Origin: Thermoplasmata archaeon
GTDB lineage: Archaea > Thermoplasmatota > Thermoplasmata > Halarchaeoplasmatales > Halarchaeoplasmataceae
Assembly: GCA_019594195.1 (NCBI GenBank)
Contig: JAFDTP010000035.1
Span: 1-17,678, forward strand
Direction of reading: 5' to 3'
Length of the DNA: 17,678 nucleotides
The notes under the pieces are model-generated. The model was not told the origin of the DNA and ran no database searches. It saw nothing but the letters and a program-made list of their open reading frames with translations. The position numbers were made by a program, and so were the translations under genes. Of the stretch, positions 422-15,601 are shown in pieces; positions within the stretch are counted from its first letter, which is position 1; the number at the start of each line of letters is the position of its first letter.

Positions 422-1648
422 ATGAAAGAAGAGATGAAATTCTACGTCGAATCCTACGGATGCACCATGAATCAGGGCGAAACGGAGATGATAGCTGAGG
501 ATCTAGAAAGACAGGGGCACGTCGAGGTCGATTCACCTGATGAGGCAGATATGTCTCTCATAGGGACCTGTGTTGTTATCAAAAAAACAGAAGAAAGGAT
601 GAAACGGAGGATCGAGGAATTGAACCGTAAAAGTTCTGAAGTAGTGATAGCAGGATGCCTCTCTTCAACAAAAGGGAAGGAAATCGAACAGAGGTGTCCG
701 AACGTAGATCTGATCTCTCCCTCCGAAGTCGAGATTTCGAAAGGACAATTGAAATCTAAGGAGGATTCAACCATAGGTACTATACCTATATGTTCTGGAT
801 GTGTTGGAAATTGTTCTTATTGTATCACGAGGTTGGCCAGAGGTGAGTTAGAGAGTAGACCTATCGATGAAATCAAAGATAGATTTGAAAGTCTGTTATC
901 CTATTCTGTTAAAGAGATAAGACTGACCAGCCAGGATTCCGCTCTGTACGGAAAAGACCTATCTACAGACCTGATCGAGCTCTTGGAAGAGTTACTCAAG
1001 ATTGAGGGCGATCACAGGATCAGGATCGGTATGATGAATGTAGACACTCTTCAGCCGATAAGATCCGAATTGATGGATATGATGGAAGACGACAGGATCT
1101 ACAAATTCTTGCACCTTCCTCTACAGTCAGGATCGGATAATATCTTAAAGAAGATGAAACGGAACTATACCACCAAAAGATGGATAAAGACTGCCGAAGA
1201 ATTTAGAGAACGATTCCCGAACCTTACACTTTCCACCGACATCATAGTCGGTTTTCCCGGCGAGACCGAAGAAGACTTCCAAAAAACGAAAAGCACGGTC
1301 AAAAAAGTTAGACCAGACGTGATAAATGTTACTCGATTCAGTCCTAGAGAGGGAACTGAAGCGGCGGAGATGGATGAACAAATACATTCAAGAGTGAAGA
1401 AAGAGAGATCAAAACAGATGACAGAACTCAGATTCGATATAAGTAGAGATATAAATGAAACCTATGTAGGAAAAAATGAAGAGATCTTGGTATTGGAAGA
1501 AGGAAAAGGCGATTCTCTCAAAGGAAGGATGGATAATTACAAGGTCGTCGTTTTAAAGGGAAAAAGTACTGATCTGATAGGCGAACGTAAAGAAGTAAAG
1601 ATAAAAAAGGCCGAGGACATCTATCTTGTGGGCGAAGTGATATCTTGA
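422..1648 (+). CDS. tRNA t6A37 methylthiotransferase (e-MtaB/CDKAL1-like radical SAM enzyme)
   Basis: Predicted to convert N6-threonylcarbamoyladenosine at tRNA position 37 to its 2-methylthio form, using two iron-sulfur clusters and S-adenosylmethionine. The N-terminal methylthiotransferase domain keeps its three cluster cysteines (C14 in SYGCTMNQ, C50 in GTCVV, C79 in AGCLSS). The radical SAM CxxxCxxC motif is C127-C131-C134 in GCVGNCSYC. Family motifs follow: LTSQDSALYG, FLHLPLQSGSD and LSTDIIVGFPGETEEDF. A TRAM-like RNA-binding domain occupies about residues 345-408. The 408-aa length is normal for the family. The SYGCT start and LTSxD motif favour the archaeal/eukaryotic e-MtaB branch over bacterial MiaB. 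The first codon may be ATG 434 rather than 422. Its stop abuts the last base of the convergent panE gene with no gap. Confidence 0.93.
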   Translation: MKEEMKFYVESYGCTMNQGETEMIAEDLERQGHVEVDSPDEADMSLIGTCVVIKKTEERMKRRIEELNRKSSEVVIAGCLSSTKGKEIEQRCPNVDLISPSEVEISKGQLKSKEDSTIGTIPICSGCVGNCSYCITRLARGELESRPIDEIKDRFESLLSYSVKEIRLTSQDSALYGKDLSTDLIELLEELLKIEGDHRIRIGMMNVDTLQPIRSELMDMMEDDRIYKFLHLPLQSGSDNILKKMKRNYTTKRWIKTAEEFRERFPNLTLSTDIIVGFPGETEEDFQKTKSTVKKVRPDVINVTRFSPREGTEAAEMDEQIHSRVKKERSKQMTELRFDISRDINETYVGKNEEILVLEEGKGDSLKGRMDNYKVVVLKGKSTDLIGERKEVKIKKAEDIYLVGEVIS

Positions 1649-2548
1649 TCATCCGGATAGATATCTATTTTCTTTGGACTTTACAAGATTGAATAGTGTT
1701 TGATTTATAGGGGTCTGTACACCTGATCTCCCTCCGATCTTTATTATCTCTCCGTTGATCTGTTCTATCTCCGTTTTATTCTTGTTCCTTATATCCTGAA
1801 GCATGCTTGAATAATTGTCAGAAGTGTTATCGGCTACCTCCATGGTTCTAGAAACCAAACTATCCTCAGAAGTATCGATCTGTTTTTCCGCTACCTTCAC
1901 GCTTTCCGAGACTATCTTCTCAAGGAGATGCTCCAGAAATTCATCTTCTATCAATGCACCGTTTTTGATATCAAGTACTGCGGTCAGTGGATTTATAGCG
2001 GAATTGACAATAGTTTTCTCCCATATATGAGATATTATCTCGCTACTGGTCCTTGTTTTGATACCGGCTCGATTTAATATCTCGCAGACATCATCGATCG
2101 ACTCGTGATGTCCCTTAGGATAACTTCCTATCACTGTCTCGCCGACGCCTGCATGTCTCACCTTTCCAGGCTCTATGAATGTGACTCCGTTGCTAGTTAC
2201 ACCGCCTATCGTTCTATCTTCACCTACATAACTTGAGATCACTTTCTCATTGTTCAATCCGTTCTGTAGAGAAAGGACTACTGAATCAGCGGACAAGTGA
2301 TCGGATATGGATCTCATAGCATCGTCGGTATCGAAGGACTTCGTACAGATGATTATCAACTCGTCATCGGCGAGTTCTGAATCGGATACAGTATAATCAA
2401 CGGAACATTTTATCTCAGTCTTACCGACCACTTCGATGTCCTTAATATCCAACGACTTTCTTCCAAGAAGGGTCACTTCGTTCTCTTGGCCGAGTAAACC
2501 GGCAAGGAAGGTACCTACGGCGCCAGGACCAACGATCCCTATCTTCAA
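1649..2548 (-). CDS. panE: 2-dehydropantoate 2-reductase (ketopantoate reductase)
   Basis: Predicted to reduce ketopantoate to pantoate with NADPH in coenzyme A synthesis. The N-terminal Rossmann domain begins MKIGIVGPGAVG with the dinucleotide-binding glycines. Family residues visible include K70 (ICTKSF), N96 (SLQNGL), catalytic-type K178 and N182 in WEKTIVNSAINPLTA, and E260 in KTEIEQINGE. Length is 299 aa, as expected. I place the start at TTG 2548 because GGAGGT lies 7 nt upstream and the protein then opens exactly like other PanE proteins. The in-frame ATG at 2563 would put that Shine-Dalgarno inside the gene and add MEVGY. It follows the IleRS-like gene on the same strand by 40 nt and may be co-transcribed. 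All key residues appear intact. Confidence 0.92.
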   Translation of the reverse strand: MKIGIVGPGAVGTFLAGLLGQENEVTLLGRKSLDIKDIEVVGKTEIKCSVDYTVSDSELADDELIIICTKSFDTDDAMRSISDHLSADSVVLSLQNGLNNEKVISSYVGEDRTIGGVTSNGVTFIEPGKVRHAGVGETVIGSYPKGHHESIDDVCEILNRAGIKTRTSSEIISHIWEKTIVNSAINPLTAVLDIKNGALIEDEFLEHLLEKIVSESVKVAEKQIDTSEDSLVSRTMEVADNTSDNYSSMLQDIRNKNKTEIEQINGEIIKIGGRSGVQTPINQTLFNLVKSKENRYLSG

Positions 2549-2588
2549 ATAACCGACCTCCATGTGTTTTTTACTATCCTATCTCGTT

Positions 2589-5500
2589 CTAATCAGGGTT
2601 ATCGATCACCTCATCGACGACCCCGTTTATCTGGTCCAATTGATTTTCCTCAAGAATTGTAGGATTGACAGGTATGATAAGGATCGATCGATTGATCGCT
2701 ACCTGGTCTTTGATAGATTGGACTAGATGGAGAACGGTCCTGAAATCATTGTTTGTGATCAGATATTCCAACCCATTGAAAAGGATCACTCCACCGGACT
2801 TGGCTAAAAAGTTCTCTAGAGCCAAACTGAGTTTTTCTAGACTCTTAGGCCTGATCACATCTTCTCTATCAACATTTGACAACCATATCATATCTACCTC
2901 TTCAAGATCATATTTTTCCTTGATCTTGTCGGGATAATCACGGGTAACACAAAGACCTATCTCATCAGTTTCTAATATCTTTTTGAACAAATCGAAAGAC
3001 ATGTCTGAATCTTCTTCTTTGATGAGATAAGTGGAACTTTTGGTGATTTCATCAGGTAGGGTTTTCTTTTCTTCAATTTCCTCTTTTTCAGCTTCCTCCT
3101 CGTCTTCCTTTGGTTTTTCTTCAACGGACTCTGCTTCTACATCTTCTCCTGTTTCTTCATCCATTTTCTCTTCGATATCTTCCTCAATTTCTTCCTCGAA
3201 TGAACTGATGATCCTTTCAGCTGCCTCTTTGTCTACACCTTCTACTTCTGAGAGGTCGAGTGGTGATGCAGACCTGATAGAATCTAGTGAAGTGTATCCA
3301 GATTCGTAGAATCGTTGACCTATTCCTTCATCAAATTCTGACATATCGGAGACGTATTCGATGACTTCTGTTCTGTAAAGCGGATCTATGCCTATCACAA
3401 CATCCCGTCCGTTCACATCCCATTCTAATATATATTGGCTGCCGCTAAACTCATCATTTCTCAGAACGAGATCCCTGACTCCGGTATCCTCTATCAACTC
3501 ATCCCTATGTTCATCGACAGCGTCGGTGATCTCTTCATCGGCGGATATACAGACATCTATTTCATCCCGTTCATCCAACTCCAGATCCAACCGCATACTT
3601 TTAATCCTTAGTTTTATCTCTTTAGCGGTTTCTCTATCCCATATCTCATCTGTAACGCTGAGATCGATGAATATGTCTTGCTCATCTAAAGATATCTTCT
3701 CATAATCTTCGGGCATCTCTTTCCGGAAATCCACCATCTCAGGGTCTATCTCGACTATTTGTCCTTCTAATCCCATCTCAAGACCGCCTTTTTCCATCCC
3801 TTCTTTCAAGTTTTCTGGTGATTTCTTTTTCAACATAGTGTATATCTTGCTAACCCAATGTTGATAGGACTTCCTTATCACGTCTTTTTTGGGTTCTGCT
3901 GTCAATATCGCCTTATCCCAATCTTCGTCGGGATACAGCGTCTCTATCTCTTCGATCTTTGCCTTTTCTTTGATAACTCTGCCAAAATTTTCTATGATCT
4001 CAACGGCCTGCGGATCTTTGGCTTTGTAAACGATATCTGAAAGAGGCCATTTTTCGGGCAGGTCTGATCCTCTCTTGAAAGAGATTATCTCATCTATTAT
4101 CTCCTTCACATCCTCCATCTGATCTTCCAAAATCTCATTGTATCTATCGGGTTCGTCTTCAGGCCATTCCTCCATGAACACACTGACTTTCTGTCCTTCG
4201 ATCGATCGATAGATATCTTCAGCCAAAAACGGTGCGATAGGAAGTATGATCTTGGAGATCTGGTTTAAGATCATATGGAGCGTTTTTAAAACTATGAATC
4301 GCTGTTTAGGAGTACCTTCATCAAATCTTTTTCTTGCAGTTATTATATACGATTGGGCAAGATCATCTAGAACGAATCCGCTTAAAACCTCTACAGCTTC
4401 ATCGAACCTGTGATCTGAGTATGACTCCTCGATATTTTTTCTAACGGTCCCCATCCTTGAAAGTATCCATTCATCTTCAGCTGAGATATCATCATCGAGT
4501 GAAACATCTTTTATCTCATCTAGCTCGATTTCGGATGATCCAAGATTTTCGTCAAAGAACCTCTCAATATTTTTGATCACCCTGATCAAAGGATGCATGT
4601 ATTCAAAGTCTTCAGCCGTGAGTTCTCTACTTTCCCAAGGTGGTTTCCCAGAATACAAACGCACCCTGAGAGAATCATAACCGTGACTACTGACTAGACT
4701 TTTCACTTCGTCGTAATCTACCTCGCAAACAACATCTCCCAATGCCATCAATTTTTCACTGCTCGGCTTATCGAAGAGGGAAGACGAAATCGCTACGCTT
4801 TCGTCCAACAGCGAGAGTTCTCCATCATCATCACCGATGAAGATATCACCAGGCCACCAGGATTGATATTCTTTTTCCTTATCGGGAGACCCGATCTGTG
4901 CCCATGGAGCGCATGAACAGATAAATGAAGGATCTATGGATCTGTTGATCCAACTCATCTTTTCGCCGCATTCTGGGCATTCTTGTTCTAAGTCGAACAT
5001 ATCATCTGCTCTGATCGTATCATCGATATCTTCACCAAACTCCGATCGATCTGATATCACCGAAACGTTTCCGCATTCACATTCCCATATAGGTAACGGA
5101 TGACCCCAAAAATCGTCTCTACTGATATTCCATTCTTTAAATGTTATCTCCTTATCCGGTGGGAAAAGTTCCAGGTCTTCGACCATCTCTTCTGATCTCT
5201 TTTCGATCCTTGAGGCGTCGAAGACCCATCCTTGTTTGGGATAAGTTATCAATCTATTCCTACAAGTTTCACAGCGTTTCAGGTATTCCTCTACATCGAA
5301 GCGTTCAAGGACAAGTCCCATGGATTCTAGATCATTCAATATAACTGGTTCACTTTGAAATGCGGATAGACCAGAGTATTTGTTCTTCTCAGGCCGGCCG
5401 CCGTGATGACCGTTCATCATCAATGGATTATAAACATCTAGGTCCTTCTCCTCAGCGATATTCCAGTGGATATTGTCAAAGGGAGGAACTAAAGGTTCGA

Positions 5501-6473
5501 TACCTGTATTATCTAAGCTCACTTTATCTGAAAGAACTATCTTACCAGTATCACCATATATCTCCTTTTTTTCCTTTATCTTCGCACCTAAGGGCTGCCT
5601 ATATGAAAGCCCTTCAAGTTCCTTCCCTCCTATAATCTTCTGTATTTCATGACCACGGATTCCTGTCGAACTGAGGATCTCTTCTACGTTATCTTTAAGA
5701 CATACATATTGTTCAAAATCCCCATCGGCCATCTTAGATTTCACGATGGCGTAATCTTCTTCCGGATGAACAAGCAAGTACAGGCTAGCGGGATATTTCC
5801 AAACATCTTCGAGATATGTCAAAAAGTATCTATTTTTGCCGCTGGTCAGGGGAACTTTCACCAAAGCCTCTTCTCGTGATTCTTTAGTAGACGATTTCTC
5901 GGATACAGACGGTGAAAATTTACATTTGGGACACCAACTCATAGGACGTTCTTTTTCCAAAAGGTGGCCTTCCTCATTCAATTCACTTAAAGCCCACCAA
6001 ACGGCATCTATGAATTCTTCACTATCTGCATGATAATAAAAATCATCGATCATCCAAGTACCGATCTCTTTTAACTCATCTTTAGTCTTTTCCAAAAATT
6101 TGTTAGAGTTTTCTTCCAGTAGATCGATCAATTCTTCTTTTCTCTCTCTGGTCAATGATCCGAGGTTGCTGACATCGGCTTGTTCATTCAAGATAACACT
6201 TTTGGCCCTGGGATTGAACTGGTCGAATCCGATCCCATTTCTAACGTTGAACGTGCGCATACTTTCAAAACGGGATATAGTATCATATATGATATTAGCA
6301 TAAAGTTCGTCCCATGTCAGGATATCCTTGGTGCTGACAGGCGGACGGGGTAGATATAGATTTCTTCCTCCTTTCCGGCTCTCGCTGACATCTCCATTTA
6401 TATCATTAGATCTCCAAAATTCTAATATATCCTTCTCTGATCGTTGGGGAGCAAGTCGATTATTGATACCCAT
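2589..6473 (-). CDS. IleRS-like protein lacking synthetase signature motifs, with C-terminal HhH and DUF835 domains
   Basis: The first ~1,045 of 1,294 residues align by eye along the whole archaeal isoleucyl-tRNA synthetase. Recognisable blocks include MSWCPKC (178-184), WNISRDDFWGHPLPIW (448-463), CAPWAQIGS (521-529), PPWESRELT (611-619) and the C-terminal anticodon-binding region. The catalytic signatures are gone. HIGH is replaced around 51-56 by ILTWDE after a retained RPP. GWDxHGLP becomes GFDQFNPR (82-89). The KMSKS stretch is shortened to EKLMALGDVV (573-582), and VWFDSG to PSFICS. In the editing domain TTTPWTLPAN becomes TYLEDVWKYPAS (219-230). A helix-hairpin-helix-like segment (~1047-1096), an acidic linker and a DUF835 domain (~1146-1290) follow. 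No internal stop or frameshift is seen. I infer a maintained non-synthetase protein, presumably alongside a genuine IleRS elsewhere. Its role is unknown. Confidence 0.9.
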   Translation of the reverse strand: MGINNRLAPQRSEKDILEFWRSNDINGDVSESRKGGRNLYLPRPPVSTKDILTWDELYANIIYDTISRFESMRTFNVRNGIGFDQFNPRAKSVILNEQADVSNLGSLTRERKEELIDLLEENSNKFLEKTKDELKEIGTWMIDDFYYHADSEEFIDAVWWALSELNEEGHLLEKERPMSWCPKCKFSPSVSEKSSTKESREEALVKVPLTSGKNRYFLTYLEDVWKYPASLYLLVHPEEDYAIVKSKMADGDFEQYVCLKDNVEEILSSTGIRGHEIQKIIGGKELEGLSYRQPLGAKIKEKKEIYGDTGKIVLSDKVSLDNTGIEPLVPPFDNIHWNIAEEKDLDVYNPLMMNGHHGGRPEKNKYSGLSAFQSEPVILNDLESMGLVLERFDVEEYLKRCETCRNRLITYPKQGWVFDASRIEKRSEEMVEDLELFPPDKEITFKEWNISRDDFWGHPLPIWECECGNVSVISDRSEFGEDIDDTIRADDMFDLEQECPECGEKMSWINRSIDPSFICSCAPWAQIGSPDKEKEYQSWWPGDIFIGDDDGELSLLDESVAISSSLFDKPSSEKLMALGDVVCEVDYDEVKSLVSSHGYDSLRVRLYSGKPPWESRELTAEDFEYMHPLIRVIKNIERFFDENLGSSEIELDEIKDVSLDDDISAEDEWILSRMGTVRKNIEESYSDHRFDEAVEVLSGFVLDDLAQSYIITARKRFDEGTPKQRFIVLKTLHMILNQISKIILPIAPFLAEDIYRSIEGQKVSVFMEEWPEDEPDRYNEILEDQMEDVKEIIDEIISFKRGSDLPEKWPLSDIVYKAKDPQAVEIIENFGRVIKEKAKIEEIETLYPDEDWDKAILTAEPKKDVIRKSYQHWVSKIYTMLKKKSPENLKEGMEKGGLEMGLEGQIVEIDPEMVDFRKEMPEDYEKISLDEQDIFIDLSVTDEIWDRETAKEIKLRIKSMRLDLELDERDEIDVCISADEEITDAVDEHRDELIEDTGVRDLVLRNDEFSGSQYILEWDVNGRDVVIGIDPLYRTEVIEYVSDMSEFDEGIGQRFYESGYTSLDSIRSASPLDLSEVEGVDKEAAERIISSFEEEIEEDIEEKMDEETGEDVEAESVEEKPKEDEEEAEKEEIEEKKTLPDEITKSSTYLIKEEDSDMSFDLFKKILETDEIGLCVTRDYPDKIKEKYDLEEVDMIWLSNVDREDVIRPKSLEKLSLALENFLAKSGGVILFNGLEYLITNNDFRTVLHLVQSIKDQVAINRSILIIPVNPTILEENQLDQINGVVDEVIDNPD

Positions 6474-9176: not shown

Positions 9177-10025
9177 TCACTTCTTTTTTTCTCTATTTCC
9201 GATCAATTCATATACAAGTCTAGCCGCAAGATTAGATGTGATGTCTGACTCATCATATTTAGGGTTGACCTCTACTATGTCCATCCCGACCAATGATGTT
9301 GAGATATTTGAGATGATCTTTTTTATCTCAGTAGGAGCAAGTCCGAACGGTTCTGGATTTCCGACACCTGGAGCGGAAGATGGATCGATAACATCCATAT
9401 CTATAGACAGATAAACAGGATGGTCTACATCTTCATCTATAAGGTCCAAAAACTCTGTTGAGGTTTTTATCTGCTTTGAAGAGTAATAAGTAGGCTTTTC
9501 GATGTCAGCAGATCCACTAGAGAAAGATCTAACACCACCTACGATAACGTTTTCAAGACCTGCGATCTCTGATATCCTACGTGAAACTGTTGCATGGCTG
9601 TGTTTTAGCCCCTCATAAGAGTCCCTGAAATCGAGGTGAGCGTCCAGGATCAAAACAGTTAGATCAGAATATCTCTCCCTGACAGATGAAACCACGGGAA
9701 CCGAAATGGAATGCTCACCACCTAAAAAGATCGGAAAACTTTCTTCATCAAGGACGTTTCCCGTTACTTCATGTATTTTTTCTTGAAGTTCCTTAAAATC
9801 ATCATAACTCATGTTCCCGAGATCGCAAAGGGGCAACTGACTCAGTGAGATACCATATTCCATAAGATAAGGTTCAAAACAGTAGGACGCATCCCTTATC
9901 TTATATGGTCCATCTCTCGTACCAGTTCGAAAAGAAGAAGTCTTATCAAATGGTACTCCAACAATGGTATAGGAAGCTTCTTTCAGATGAGAGGTGAATC
10001 CCGCGAATTTTCTATCCTTGTTCAT
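9177..10025 (-). CDS. speB: Agmatinase (ureohydrolase family)
   Basis: Predicted to hydrolyse agmatine to putrescine and urea in polyamine synthesis. The two-manganese site of the arginase/agmatinase fold is complete: H105 in GGEHS, D128/H130/D132 in DAHLDFRD, and D209/D211 in SIDMDVIDP. The substrate-side segment SSAPGVGNPEPFGL is typical of agmatinases. The N-terminal TRDGP motif and the C-terminal MDIVEVNPKYD block are also conserved. Length is 282 aa, normal for the family. Its ATG overlaps the stop codon of the aIF5A gene (ATGA), suggesting translational coupling. The pairing makes metabolic sense because putrescine-derived spermidine is the usual donor for (deoxy)hypusine on aIF5A. The exact substrate within the ureohydrolases is inferred from motifs and context. 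Confidence 0.93.
   Translation of the reverse strand: MNKDRKFAGFTSHLKEASYTIVGVPFDKTSSFRTGTRDGPYKIRDASYCFEPYLMEYGISLSQLPLCDLGNMSYDDFKELQEKIHEVTGNVLDEESFPIFLGGEHSISVPVVSSVRERYSDLTVLILDAHLDFRDSYEGLKHSHATVSRRISEIAGLENVIVGGVRSFSSGSADIEKPTYYSSKQIKTSTEFLDLIDEDVDHPVYLSIDMDVIDPSSAPGVGNPEPFGLAPTEIKKIISNISTSLVGMDIVEVNPKYDESDITSNLAARLVYELIGNREKKK
9179..9191 (+). terminator. Possible T-rich terminator downstream of ftsZ
   Basis: A T-rich tract (TTCTTTTTTTC) begins 18 nt after the ftsZ stop. Archaeal polymerase can terminate at short oligo-T runs. It overlaps the 3' end of the convergent speB gene, where it encodes the lysine-rich C-terminus (REKKK), so the T-run may simply be coding. Confidence 0.3.
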
Positions 10026-10408
10026 GTCTGGATTATCTTTTTCCTACCCATCGCTTCTAGATATCTTATGTCTTGACCCTGTTCTATTTCTTCGTAGGTC
10101 TCTTCATCTACATTTATCTGGAAAGTATCGTAGGTATCTAGATCCATTATATTTACTTCTCCGCCGGATTTGTTGACTACTTGACCCTTTCTTCTATCTA
10201 TTATAGGGACTCTTATCTTGGTAGTGACCGGATTCAACATGCTGTGTTTTTTGTTATCAAAGATCCCTTTAGCTTCTATCCTAGCTTTAGCTTCGCCGTG
10301 TTTTCCTGGCTTCGAAGTATCTATGCTCTTGATCTCACAAGGTTCGTCGTCGATTATTATATACTGATTTTCTTTTAGATTCCTTATCTCGTCCTGTTCC
10401 CAATCCAT
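10022..10408 (-). CDS. eif5A: Translation factor aIF5A (hypusine-containing)
   Basis: Archaeal homologue of eIF5A/EF-P, which binds the ribosome to relieve stalled peptide-bond formation. The N-terminal SH3-like domain holds the hypusine loop DTSKPGKHGEAK, where K36 in GKHG is the lysine converted to (deoxy)hypusine. The C-terminal OB fold spans roughly residues 70-128. I choose ATG 10408, giving 128 aa that open at MDWEQDEIRNLK like other family members, with GTGAT just upstream as a ribosome-binding site. A GTG at 10417 would add three residues but is itself part of that GTGAT. It is first in a two-gene operon with speB, overlapping by 4 nt. Deoxyhypusine synthase is not in the window. Confidence 0.95.
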   Translation of the reverse strand: MDWEQDEIRNLKENQYIIIDDEPCEIKSIDTSKPGKHGEAKARIEAKGIFDNKKHSMLNPVTTKIRVPIIDRRKGQVVNKSGGEVNIMDLDTYDTFQINVDEETYEEIEQGQDIRYLEAMGRKKIIQT

Positions 10409-10436
10409 GTCTATCACAGCGAGATTAAGAGTTTAT

Positions 10437-12515: not shown

Positions 12516-14159
12516 GTGAGAAGTGAAGGAAATATCAGACACGGAAAAACTCATCTTTTAAAAACAAAAGATGCAGGACATGCCTTAGAATTTTTTAGAT
12601 CCTTAACAGAAAACAAACGAGGATTATGCATCACTAACGAAAATCCAAGAGAACTCAAAAAAAGATACGATCTTTTAGGTATAGATTTCGCCCGCCTTTC
12701 AGATAACCATGATAAATCCGCTATAGATTATGATGAACTCGATCTCTTAGGGCTGATAATAAAGAGGTTCATATCCGAAGAAGACGGCGTTGTACTGATC
12801 CATGGTATCCATCTTCTTCTAGAGAACAATTCTCCTGAAACGATGATAAGGTTTTTCAGATCTATCGATGATCAGATAAATCAACATCATTCCACATTAT
12901 TGATCGTACTAGACGAGTCTGAATTGAGAAGAGAACAACTGAGATTATTAGAGAAGGAGCTTGACTTCAATATAAAAAGGATCGGTCCTTCTTCAAAAAA
13001 GATTAGAGAGAAAACATTTAGCGGTGATAAAGACCTAGTTTCAGAAGTCAGAGAGATGATGGATTTTCTAAAGGACCAGGAAATAAATCTTGAAAAAGAG
13101 TTGCATGATAAAAGATATCCAGACCAGTTCAAAAGAGAAGATGCGGACCTTGAGAAGATACACGATTCTATAGAAGACCTTAGGAGAGAGAACGAAGAAC
13201 TGAAAAAACAGCTACAAAATTTGAAAGGGCAAAAAGAGGTCATCGATCATGGTGATAGACGGAAAAAAATAGAGGGAGATGTTATCTCAACGATCGATGA
13301 AGAAAAAGAAGACATAAAAAAACAGATGAAAAAGATGGAGAATGAGAAGAAAGTAGATGAGTTCAGCGATAAGAGTTCGGACGATCTCTTAGAAACATTA
13401 TCAGATCTGAAGGATGAAGTGAAATCGCTAAGGGATGAGGTAACAGAGATAAGAGATGATGAAACACAAACGATATCTGATTTGCCTGAAAGTAAGAAGC
13501 CAACCCAATTTGACAAATCACACGACGATAGAAAGGTTATAGAAGAACCAAAATTCAAAGATGTCGATGAGGATGTTCAACCTTCCAAAAAAGAAGAAAA
13601 ACCAACAAAAAGCGACCAGGACCTGGAAGAGGAAATGAAAGGATATGGCGTTGACATAAAGCCCGGCTCCGTCATCGATAGGGATCTTTTTTCAGAAACA
13701 GATCTAAGGATAGGAAGTGATTCCACAGTTAAGGGTTCACTCGAAGCCGACGGTGATGTGATAATCGAAGAAGAGGTGATAATCCAGGGTTATGCAACCT
13801 CAAACCAAGGAGACGTAGATATAGGTCCAGATAGCAAAGTAGAAGGTGATGTGAAAGGGAACAGCGTTGCTCTTTCTGAACGATCGAGGGTCAAGGATAT
13901 TAGGGCAGAAGATAAGGTGGTTCTAAAAAGAGGGTCGAGCGTTGAGAATGTTTACTGTGAAAAAGATATCGATATCTCTGAAAACGTGAATATTGTCGGT
14001 GATATCTATTATGGTGGCGATCTCGAATTGAAGAAGTCAGATATTACTATCACAAAAAAGATCCATCCTGTGAAAAACCTAGAAAAGATAAAAGAAGATG
14101 GTAAGGGGGAAGAAGATGGCGAGGAAGAGATATTGGATGAAAGATGGGCATCTGAATGA
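12516..14159 (+). CDS. DUF835 - coiled coil - bactofilin-like beta-helix protein
   Basis: A 547-residue protein of three parts. Residues ~10-158 are a DUF835 domain closely similar to the one ending the IleRS-like protein: GLCITNENPRELKKRYDL here against GLCVTRDYPDKIKEKYDL there. Residues ~175-315 are charged heptad-rich coiled coil, followed by a disordered acidic linker to ~385. Residues ~386-512 form short repeated beta-strand turns (LRIGSDSTVKGSLEADGDVIIEEEV and similar), as in polymer-forming bactofilins. The start is GTG 12516, with GGAGG 8 nt upstream; the overlapping ATG at 12514 is out of frame and stops at once. No signal peptide or membrane helix is present, so a cytoplasmic scaffold or filament is inferred. 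DUF835 has no firm function. The bactofilin assignment rests on the repeat pattern and needs a profile search. Confidence 0.85.
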   Translation: MRSEGNIRHGKTHLLKTKDAGHALEFFRSLTENKRGLCITNENPRELKKRYDLLGIDFARLSDNHDKSAIDYDELDLLGLIIKRFISEEDGVVLIHGIHLLLENNSPETMIRFFRSIDDQINQHHSTLLIVLDESELRREQLRLLEKELDFNIKRIGPSSKKIREKTFSGDKDLVSEVREMMDFLKDQEINLEKELHDKRYPDQFKREDADLEKIHDSIEDLRRENEELKKQLQNLKGQKEVIDHGDRRKKIEGDVISTIDEEKEDIKKQMKKMENEKKVDEFSDKSSDDLLETLSDLKDEVKSLRDEVTEIRDDETQTISDLPESKKPTQFDKSHDDRKVIEEPKFKDVDEDVQPSKKEEKPTKSDQDLEEEMKGYGVDIKPGSVIDRDLFSETDLRIGSDSTVKGSLEADGDVIIEEEVIIQGYATSNQGDVDIGPDSKVEGDVKGNSVALSERSRVKDIRAEDKVVLKRGSSVENVYCEKDIDISENVNIVGDIYYGGDLELKKSDITITKKIHPVKNLEKIKEDGKGEEDGEEEILDERWASE

Positions 14160-14199: not shown

Positions 14200-15069
14200 T
14201 TATAGAGTGTCAGGTTCCCACTCCAATCTTTCGATCCTTGAAAGCATATCTTCTATCCTATCCTCTGTAAAACCTATCAAAGGTCTAAGTACCATCAGGT
14301 CGGTATCGATCTTAGAACGATCCGATATAGTTTCCCCCACTACCAAAGCCTGGGCCTTCTCAGGAAAATCTATCGAGGATAGATCGGCTGTTGATTCAGA
14401 TCGGATCTCCTTTATACTCACGTCCCATTTTCTCAAGCGTTCTAATAATTCTTGATCTTCACATATGATGTATAGTCTAGCTCCTCGTCTCATGATCAAC
14501 CAGGCGGCCAAAAAATCCCGTTCATCTTCAACATAGGCGGCGATCTTACCTTGGGAGCCCACTGGAAGCCCTCCGGGTGCATCGATGATCTCGGTGAAAA
14601 CGTATGCATCGGAATGCCTTATCTCAATGTGGAATTCATTTTCAGGTGCATCTAAGTCGACTTCAAGATCGGGATCTTCCTCTAAGATAGCTTCACCGAC
14701 CATGTCCTCTACATCTTGACTATCAAAATCGTGCTCTCCGACCCTTCTTGCTCTAACTGCAAAAGTACCAGATATACTCCTACTGAATTTCTTACCTTCT
14801 ATTTGCAACTTCGATATATCACTGTCCGATCTTTTCGCCGGACTAAAAGAAACGAGACCGAACGTCCTTGAAAAAAGGTATGAATTTTCAGCCTGGGTGT
14901 AGGCAAAGATCCTACCCATATCTTTTTTTTCGATCACCAACTCTTCACCCCTATCTAAAAAGGTGTTTTCCATATTCTGTATCAATATATCCTCAAAGTG
15001 TTTTCTTATATTGGCACTCTTTATGCCTATCTCCCCATATCGTAAAAGATGAAGGTCTAGTTCAGACAT
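14200..15069 (-). CDS. ThiI-like THUMP protein lacking the PP-loop
   Basis: Residues 1-~165 match the N-terminal ferredoxin-like and THUMP RNA-binding domains of the tRNA 4-thiouridine synthase ThiI (LLRYGEIGIKSANIRKHFED, then FAVRARRVGEHDF). The hallmark GGLPVGSQGK (167-176) leads where ThiI has the ATP-binding SGGxDS, but here the sequence is IAAYVEDERDFLAAW. The flanks (LAAWLIMRRGA, then ALVVGET and LRPLIGF) still align. The whole protein is 289 aa, about 100 short of typical ThiI, mostly between LYIICEDQ and ALVVGE. AMP-forming catalysis therefore looks lost, while tRNA binding may remain. The start is ATG 15069, with GGTGA upstream overlapping the nitroreductase stop; ATG 15093 is the alternative. 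It is the last gene of a three-gene operon. Its role is unknown. Confidence 0.85.
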   Translation of the reverse strand: MSELDLHLLRYGEIGIKSANIRKHFEDILIQNMENTFLDRGEELVIEKKDMGRIFAYTQAENSYLFSRTFGLVSFSPAKRSDSDISKLQIEGKKFSRSISGTFAVRARRVGEHDFDSQDVEDMVGEAILEEDPDLEVDLDAPENEFHIEIRHSDAYVFTEIIDAPGGLPVGSQGKIAAYVEDERDFLAAWLIMRRGARLYIICEDQELLERLRKWDVSIKEIRSESTADLSSIDFPEKAQALVVGETISDRSKIDTDLMVLRPLIGFTEDRIEDMLSRIERLEWEPDTL

Positions 15070-15079
15070 GATCTTTTCT

Positions 15080-15601
15080 TCACCATCGCCCATAGTGTAT
15101 CAATTCTTCAGCGTCCATCTTATCTGGTTCGTCGGGTATCTCGGCTGGATGACCGATCGGTAAAAGACATATCGGTCTTACTCCGTTAGGTATTCCGAGC
15201 TGATCCGATACTTTCTCTTCCTCAAAAGCACCTATCCAAACAGATGAATAATTTTTATCCACAACAGCTAGCAGCATATTTTCTACCGATGCTGTTGCAT
15301 CCTGTATCGAATAAAGCTTTCTACCTCTTTCACCATATCTTTCAGCTGATCTCTCTTTGTTCGCGCAGACCACTATTACCCAAGGTGCATCTGCGATGAA
15401 TGATTGTCCGTAAGCATTTTCTACCAAACGTTGTTTTTCTCCTTCATCTTTTATAACTATGAAATCTCTAGCTTGACGATTCCCAGCAGAGGGAGCAGAG
15501 TGACCGATCTTTATTATCTCTTTTATTTCCTCTTCAGGGATATCTTTATCTTCAAAAGACCTTACGCTTCGTCTTTTTTCAGCTACTTTTTTGAAGTCCA
15601 T
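15080..15601 (-). CDS. Nitroreductase-family FMN oxidoreductase
   Basis: An FMN-dependent NAD(P)H oxidoreductase of the nitroreductase fold. FMN-binding features include RRSVRSF near the N-terminus and the HSAPSAGNRQARDFIVI segment. Other family blocks are ADAPWVIVVCAN, DATASVENMLLAV and GIPNGVRPICLLPIGHPAE. It is 173 aa, at the compact end of the family. I choose ATG 15601, which overlaps the flavoprotein stop as TGATG and has GGAGGT 6 nt upstream; ATG 15604 is equally in frame. The tight packing with the WrbA-like gene upstream and the ThiI-like gene downstream indicates one transcript. The natural substrate cannot be read from the sequence. Such proteins range from quinone or nitro-compound reductases to cofactor-modifying enzymes. 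Confidence 0.92.
   Translation of the reverse strand: MDFKKVAEKRRSVRSFEDKDIPEEEIKEIIKIGHSAPSAGNRQARDFIVIKDEGEKQRLVENAYGQSFIADAPWVIVVCANKERSAERYGERGRKLYSIQDATASVENMLLAVVDKNYSSVWIGAFEEEKVSDQLGIPNGVRPICLLPIGHPAEIPDEPDKMDAEELIHYGRW

Follow-up and report, generated by a model that had tools for sequence, protein, structure and literature searches.

Why a cell would keep a full-length isoleucyl-tRNA synthetase (IleRS) gene from which the signatures of its chemistry have disappeared is the question raised by contig JAFDTP010000035.1 of a Thermoplasmata archaeon (GenBank assembly GCA_019594195.1). The window, meaning the whole 17,678-nucleotide stretch analyzed here, carries on its minus strand a gene for an IleRS-like protein that lacks the motifs of aminoacylation and editing and ends in a helix-hairpin-helix (HhH) followed by a DUF835 domain. 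In the explanation that we favor, and which is probable rather than secure, this native archaeal IleRS was displaced by a second IleRS, became catalytically dead, and was kept as a tRNA-binding adaptor that acts through its tail. The main features of the gene are as follows.

2589..6473, minus strand: decayed IleRS with HhH–DUF835 tail, 1294 residues (open reading frame, Pfam, NCBIfam, family alignments)
6303..6323, minus strand: ILTWDEL (residues 51-57) at the place of HIGH (aligned column)
6207..6230, minus strand: GFDQFNPR (residues 82-89) at the place of GYDMHGLP (alignment)
5784..5816, minus strand: YLEDVWKYPAS (residues 220-230) at the place of the editing motif TTTPWTLPAN (alignment)
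4914..4931, minus strand: PSFICS (residues 515-520) at the place of VWFDSA (alignment)
4704..4739, minus strand: residues 579-590, site of the absent KMSKS loop (9-column alignment gap)
4038..4475, minus strand: anticodon-binding domain (Anticodon_1, residues 667-812; Pfam)
3387..3974, minus strand: C-terminal body domain (DUF5915, residues 834-1029; Pfam)
3195..3317, minus strand: helix-hairpin-helix (residues 1053-1093; Pfam HHH_5)
2634..3011, minus strand: DUF835 (residues 1155-1280), predicted RecA/KaiC-like fold without Walker A (Pfam, predicted model)

The frame at 2589-6473 consists of 1294 codons with no internal stop, in agreement with a first-pass annotation, made from the sequence alone, that had seen neither stop nor frameshift over 3.9 kb. 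The domains tRNA-synt_1 (residues 16-566), Anticodon_1, and DUF5915 all score above their Pfam cut-offs, and the IleRS body is therefore real; it is complete, spans residues 1-1030, and has in the predicted model the fold of a whole IleRS, including the anticodon-binding and C-terminal domains. The annotation's alignment to IleRS from end to end holds for this body and breaks down at approximately residues 1041-1294, where the tail had gone unnoticed (DUF835 scores 101.8 bits against a cut-off of 33.1, and HHH_5 27.5 against 27). The best-scoring NCBIfam family is ileS (TIGR00392), at 250 bits and under the cut-off of 621; of the other marks of that enzyme family, HIGH, KMSKS, TTTPW, and the downstream HxAPGxG are missing as well.

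In the alignment, HIGH, GxDxHG, TTTPW, WFDS, DQxxGW, and KMSKS are gone from the body of the protein. Most of the replacements proposed in the first-pass annotation are reproduced there (HIGH by LTWDE, GYDMHGLP by GFDQFNPR, TTTPWTL by LEDVWKY, and WFDSA by SFICS). The proposed change of KMSKS to KLMALGD is not: KLMALGD pairs with the preceding strand (VLMHGWML), the KMSKS loop itself corresponds to the 9-column gap, and KLMALGD was rejected as its counterpart. Equivalents of HIGH or KMSKS elsewhere in the protein had been named beforehand as evidence to the contrary; a pattern search of 48 decayed-family rows, which count some genes twice (as a P row and an L row), found none that would be usable. 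The GxDxHG, TTTPW, and WFDS patterns occur in 0 of the 48 rows anywhere in the protein, and a HIGH-like pattern in one row and KMSKS-like patterns in four are never at the homologous place. The same patterns detected GxDxHG, TTTPW, and WFDS in all 15 motif-bearing IleRS used as controls, HIGH-like sequences in 12, and KMSKS-like sequences in 14. A relocation of the motifs was rejected on this search. Both synthetic and editing chemistry were thought at first to be lost from a single protein; motif loss is seen across the whole family, and, as judged from sequence, a loss of catalytic chemistry in the family is well supported.

The decayed protein belongs to a broader group of tailed IleRS. Among the best 120 of 261 proteins found with the window protein, 12 close orthologues (38-52% identity, 1285-1349 residues, all with DUF835) were followed by P0014, an IleRS from a Methanomassiliicoccales metagenome-assembled genome with intact motifs and the same HhH–DUF835 tail. 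A search with DUF835 only yielded 299 proteins. Among the best 120, the highest-ranking are additional proteins of the decayed family (two carry the name Candidatus Natronoplasma), and the remainder are mostly tail-bearing IleRS of Thermoplasmata and relatives. Motifs were scored in 140 of 146 tailed rows, six partial rows having been dropped, after removal of five DUF835 proteins that are not IleRS. Within this set, which comes largely from searches with the window protein, counts some genes twice, and whose proportions are not natural frequencies, all seven motifs are kept in 70 rows, none in 46, one in three, and an intermediate number in 21. Two of the intermediate rows (P0162 and P0164) lack HIGH and GxDxHG merely by being cut short. 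KMSKS alone is lost in seven rows and KMSKS together with HIGH in five, which suggests that KMSKS was usually lost first, as a tendency and not as a fixed order.

The tail itself lacks Walker A. This motif was found in 0 of the 48 decayed-family rows, and where GxxxxGK[ST] occurs in other tailed rows (11 of 79), it lies at least 704 residues before the C terminus, outside DUF835.

Retention of the body is marked by its cysteines.

5922..5933, minus strand: zinc-type CxxC, Cys181/184
5262..5273, minus strand: zinc-type CxxC, Cys401/404
5073..5081, minus strand: zinc-type pair, Cys465/467
4968..4979, minus strand: zinc-type pair, Cys499/502

All eight are present in 49 of the 49 rows having at most one of the seven motifs, so that the persistence of zinc-type CxxC pairs reported for the window protein extends to its decayed relatives. 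For five gene pairs at a decayed or decaying stage, compared over their whole length, the proportion of synonymous differences (pS) was 0.74-0.82, which is saturated, while that of replacement differences (pN) was 0.087-0.25. No ratio of nonsynonymous to synonymous rates (dN/dS) is given for these pairs because dS is saturated. The genes are under purifying selection, and the invariant cysteines together with the low pN support the earlier suggestion of selection for another function.

Conservation has shifted toward the C-terminal half of the protein. When identity within the decayed group (19 rows) is divided by identity within the intact group (16 rows), the ratio is 0.50-0.57 for the catalytic part and CP1, 0.73 for the anticodon domain, 0.83 for DUF5915, 1.37 for the HhH, and 0.91 for DUF835. 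The intact pattern has been lost at 95 columns, 73 of which fall in bins spanning residues 1-660; another 17 columns have become conserved in the decayed family, and the five of these in the same bins are scattered. At the level of sequence this favors a retained tRNA-facing half and tail, with no sign of a rebuilt active site.

A scan of species genomes identified 16 loci, 11 of which (L001-L011) encode the decayed protein; ten of these records are titled Thermoplasmata or Thermoplasmatota and one Mollicutes (L008, genome G008). Going by their isolate names, these relatives may come from hypersaline lake sediments. An intact, full-length, type-2-like second IleRS is present in eight of the 11 genomes with the fully decayed protein (G002, G003, G004, G006, G007, G009, G010, and G011), and only fragments of a second ileS are present in G001 (two) and G005 (one). 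G008 has an ileS of another type, and its record is probably misbinned because its contig carries a decayed archaeal IleRS. All five genomes with other decayed tailed IleRS (G268, G265, G333, G368, and G323) have a second ileS, which brings the count to 13 of 16 genomes with a decayed copy, with fragments in two more.

The pattern is reversed where the tailed enzyme is complete. In a sample of the phylum, 188 of 389 genomes matched at E 1e-120, and among the matches listed from this search, DUF835 tails were found in 25 of 27 loci read, beyond three decayed-family loci. Of 21 relatives' genomes in which the tailed IleRS is motif-complete, 19 have it as the sole ileS to pass the cut-off (six of eight in one set and 13 of 13 in another), the exceptions being G263 and G372. 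Outside this count stand G343 (L090, with MHKS, 1239 residues, motifs not scored, and one ileS) and G189, which has a partial tailed IleRS.

The history of the two copies was followed in trees of hand-chosen rows (74 in FastTree, 47 in IQ-TREE, without L064, and 44 in a tree of second IleRS). The fully decayed rows form one group with starred support of 100 in both the 74-row and 47-row trees. In the former, they join L064, L062/L063, and L071/L096 in a clade of 26 (99, starred), which sits beside a group of 20 containing intact tailed IleRS (93); L051 and L090 lie outside the decayed clade, and L064, from genome G323, has a long branch and an unsure place. In the 47-row tree, the decayed clade comprises 28 rows, with four rows that have only a variant KMSKS (Shimodaira–Hasegawa approximate likelihood-ratio test [SH-aLRT] 94, unstarred). 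The trees gather the motif-lost forms, graded intermediates included, in a single clade. The tailed lineage, with decayed beside intact members, is placed within archaeal-type IleRS by both trees (46 rows, 95, starred, in the 74-row tree; 43 rows, 98, starred, in the 47-row tree).

As for the second IleRS, 15 of 16 fall in one group in the 74-row tree (100, starred), and one of them, compared with the PDB, scored 989 bits to P. megaterium IleRS2 and 372 to IleRS1, identifying it as type 2. Their branching largely mirrors that of the decayed clade, G333 pairing with G368 and G268 with G265, and the genomes that carry the fully decayed protein grouping together. A mismatch is seen for G323, whose second copy pairs with that of G263 in the 74-row tree but whose native copy does not. 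The 44-row tree sets the second IleRS apart from six sampled bacteria and from seven other type-2 IleRS of the phylum; its midpoint root is not meaningful, and it does not indicate their source. Displacement of the native IleRS by the second IleRS is well supported.

Some genomes show other arrangements. G263 is a mirror case, in which the tailed IleRS is complete and the second, type-2-like copy has KISRA for KMSKS (L094 and L056). In G372, the tailed IleRS is scored complete, with mild changes (PLSKS and EQTAG), and the second IleRS (L095) is of another type, with PMGVHH for HIGH and MHRS for KMSKS; it groups with P0072 and P0097 and is a separate acquisition beside the tailed enzyme. L128, from G046, is an IleRS inside the second-copy group, and no tailed IleRS was found in that genome at E 1e-120; the native enzyme may have been lost there outright.

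Displacement followed by retention as a tRNA-binding adaptor fits most of these results, although binding and signaling are parts of it that we infer. The ancestor would have been a working IleRS of a Thermoplasmatota lineage that already bore the C-terminal HhH–DUF835 tail. Arrival of a second, tail-less type-2 IleRS would have freed the native enzyme from charging tRNA, after which its signature motifs could have been lost stepwise, usually beginning with KMSKS, while the gene was kept for the job of the tail and the tRNA-facing half. The anticodon-binding and C-terminal domains would hold a tRNA, probably tRNA-Ile, and the HhH together with the P-loop-less, KaiC-like DUF835 would relay this through assembly with further DUF835 proteins in the cell.

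Several observations weigh against this proposal. The second ileS of the window's own organism is predicted from the genomes of relatives, and tRNA binding, oligomerization, and a regulatory output are predicted from sequence and models. The tail model matches the RecA-like folds of KaiC, FlaH, and Elp456, a likeness in fold only, at 9-16% sequence identity; these proteins form rings, and any ring formation or tRNA binding by DUF835 would be hypothetical. G263 and G372, which hold a motif-complete tailed IleRS alongside a second ileS, show that decay does not have to follow once a second copy is present. In G268, G265, G333, and G368, the decayed intermediates still reach 705-736 bits, above the ileS cut-off, and P0157 and P0174 retain SK at the KMSKS position with other motifs lost, which disturbs the stepwise order. 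Some anticodon-domain residues conserved in intact enzymes are altered (for example, S-R to A-Q at 706-707). Change in the catalytic part is slower than in residues 660-1030 in four of five close pairs and only slightly faster than in the tail in four of five; the body may therefore have a new role of its own. G012, which may also count against the proposal, has a second ileS, and genome searches found there neither the decayed protein nor the ketopantoate reductase PanE encoded next to it elsewhere, although this genome may be incomplete.

An extension of the adaptor model, which we regard as speculative and unlikely to be correct as it stands, joins two dead enzymes into a sensor. A dead IleRS that reads tRNA-Ile would be coupled to a dead KaiC-like domain in a ring or mixed polymer with other DUF835 proteins, such as the DUF835–bactofilin protein (12516-14159); isoleucine or tRNA status would in this way set the state of a DUF835 network and perhaps of PanE. 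If this were true, tailed IleRS that still work in other Thermoplasmata would already signal, and displacement would have uncovered the signaling role by removing the need for catalysis.

Among the alternatives, retention of the tail only, with the body as a passive scaffold that binds no tRNA, has a small chance of being right. DUF835 is the most conserved domain (63% identity within the decayed family and 51% to intact tailed IleRS) and holds 36 of the 106 columns that are conserved in decayed and intact rows alike; in four of five close pairs, change is slightly slower in the tail than in the catalytic part, and DUF835 occurs in many other protein contexts. Such a scaffold is hard to reconcile with zinc cysteines that are kept in every decayed row that covers the body, with purifying selection on the body nearly as strong as on the tail, and with anticodon and C-terminal body domains that are better conserved than the catalytic part.

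Rebuilding of the old active site for another reaction appears less likely still. A precedent exists in SbzA, an IleRS homologue that acts in altemicidin biosynthesis by transferring Ile from Ile-tRNA, as described in PMC9437257, and the conservation of the catalytic part in close pairs would suit a new enzyme. The few newly conserved columns in residues 1-660 are scattered, however, and neither the class I nucleotide motifs nor Walker A patterns are present. SbzA is similarly an IleRS-derived protein outside translation, but it serves antibiotic synthesis, and the genes beside the decayed IleRS in the window do not suggest such a pathway.

It is about equally doubtful that the protein is chiefly a partner of ketopantoate reductase, that is, a regulator tied to pantothenate and CoA supply and encoded with its target.

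1649..2563, minus strand: ketopantoate reductase PanE/ApbA, directly downstream of the decayed IleRS on the same strand (annotation)

PanE lies directly 3' on the same strand in 11 of 11 decayed-family loci with sequence there (the window, L001-L007, and L009-L011), even at loci 30-32% identical to the window protein. It was found in none of the 12 flanks examined around other tailed IleRS, although one of these flanks (L109) ends approximately 430 bases after the IleRS gene; in the eight of those 12 genomes that were searched for it, PanE is located elsewhere. The link presumably arose with the fully decayed family. The evidence for partnership is adjacency alone, however, and operon partners often share no mechanism; moreover, outer genes are partly kept as well, with an MtaB-like methylthiotransferase following PanE in seven decayed-family loci, and the region may simply be stable. 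The flank of L112 contains FEN1, rpe, and aconitase X genes, in clusters common to several other tailed-IleRS flanks.

That the protein is an active IleRS with unorthodox motifs is highly improbable. HIGH can vary in IleRS2, according to PMC10485003, and GVHH and MHKS-type variants are seen among the IleRS compared here; the reading was rejected on the joint loss of seven motifs, with the KMSKS loop in a gap, and on the intact second ileS of relatives. The slightest chance of all is left to a decaying pseudogene or a misassembly, to which the loss of every catalytic motif might point. Replacement sites have stayed conserved against a saturated synonymous background, and the gene is therefore not a pseudogene; that candidate was rejected also in that no internal stop occurs in any match listed for the relatives' decayed proteins, no frameshift or relaxed selection is seen, and the 48 rows, from many contigs and sources, measure 1285-1925 residues (the longest being stop-to-stop frames).

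The HisRS-like domain of GCN2 and HisZ are synthetase-derived proteins that do not charge tRNA and are used for sensing or regulation. Both descend from the class II HisRS, whose fold is unrelated to that of the decayed IleRS. HisZ is also treated in the review PMC9437257; no text on GCN2 or HisZ was found in PMC10211241. According to PMC9437257, LeuRS-I of Sulfolobaceae and LeuRS2 of Halobacteria are likewise additional archaeal class I synthetases of unclear role, and LeuRS-I binds tRNA-Leu and cannot aminoacylate it but still makes leucyl-adenylate. The decayed IleRS differs from LeuRS-I in lacking the adenylate-forming motifs and in having a KaiC-like tail. Closest of all are the HhH–DUF835-tailed IleRS of Methanomassiliicoccales and other Thermoplasmata, such as P0014, which have the same domain order, are nearest in the trees, and are on average 51% identical in DUF835; they differ in their intact active-site and editing motifs and in being the sole ileS in 19 of the 21 genomes examined.

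The first-pass annotation knew of no described family of this kind, and no description of such a dead tailed IleRS family was found in the open-access literature, subscription journals being mostly outside the coverage of that search. The finding is larger than could be seen then: a tail, a series of intermediates, a history of displacement, and PanE as a neighbor have been added. A synthetase can be followed through many steps from enzyme to non-enzyme, and the likely cause, a second ileS, is in view. A standing question becomes testable, namely whether a second job can matter enough in archaeal synthetases for the gene to survive once charging is unneeded, and the family points to a role for this tail in the still functional IleRS of methanogens. 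More generally, DUF835 is a multi-copy archaeal domain that is named in a single paper of the open-access literature searched, and the decayed IleRS gives a handle on it.

Further genes for RNA and translation functions lie near the decayed IleRS.

422-1648, plus strand: MtaB-like methylthiotransferase (annotation)
10022-10417, minus strand: aIF5A (annotation)
14200-15093, minus strand: THUMP/ThiI-like protein (annotation)

Several DUF835 matches are found per genome, with 37 in G268 and 31 in G265 compared with 2-14 in the other 17 genomes searched. Within the window, the gene at 12516-14159 on the plus strand encodes a DUF835 domain (63.6 bits) joined through a coiled coil to a bactofilin domain (28.7 bits), that is, a KaiC-like domain attached to a polymer-forming one, and a relative is present on the corresponding side of L001.

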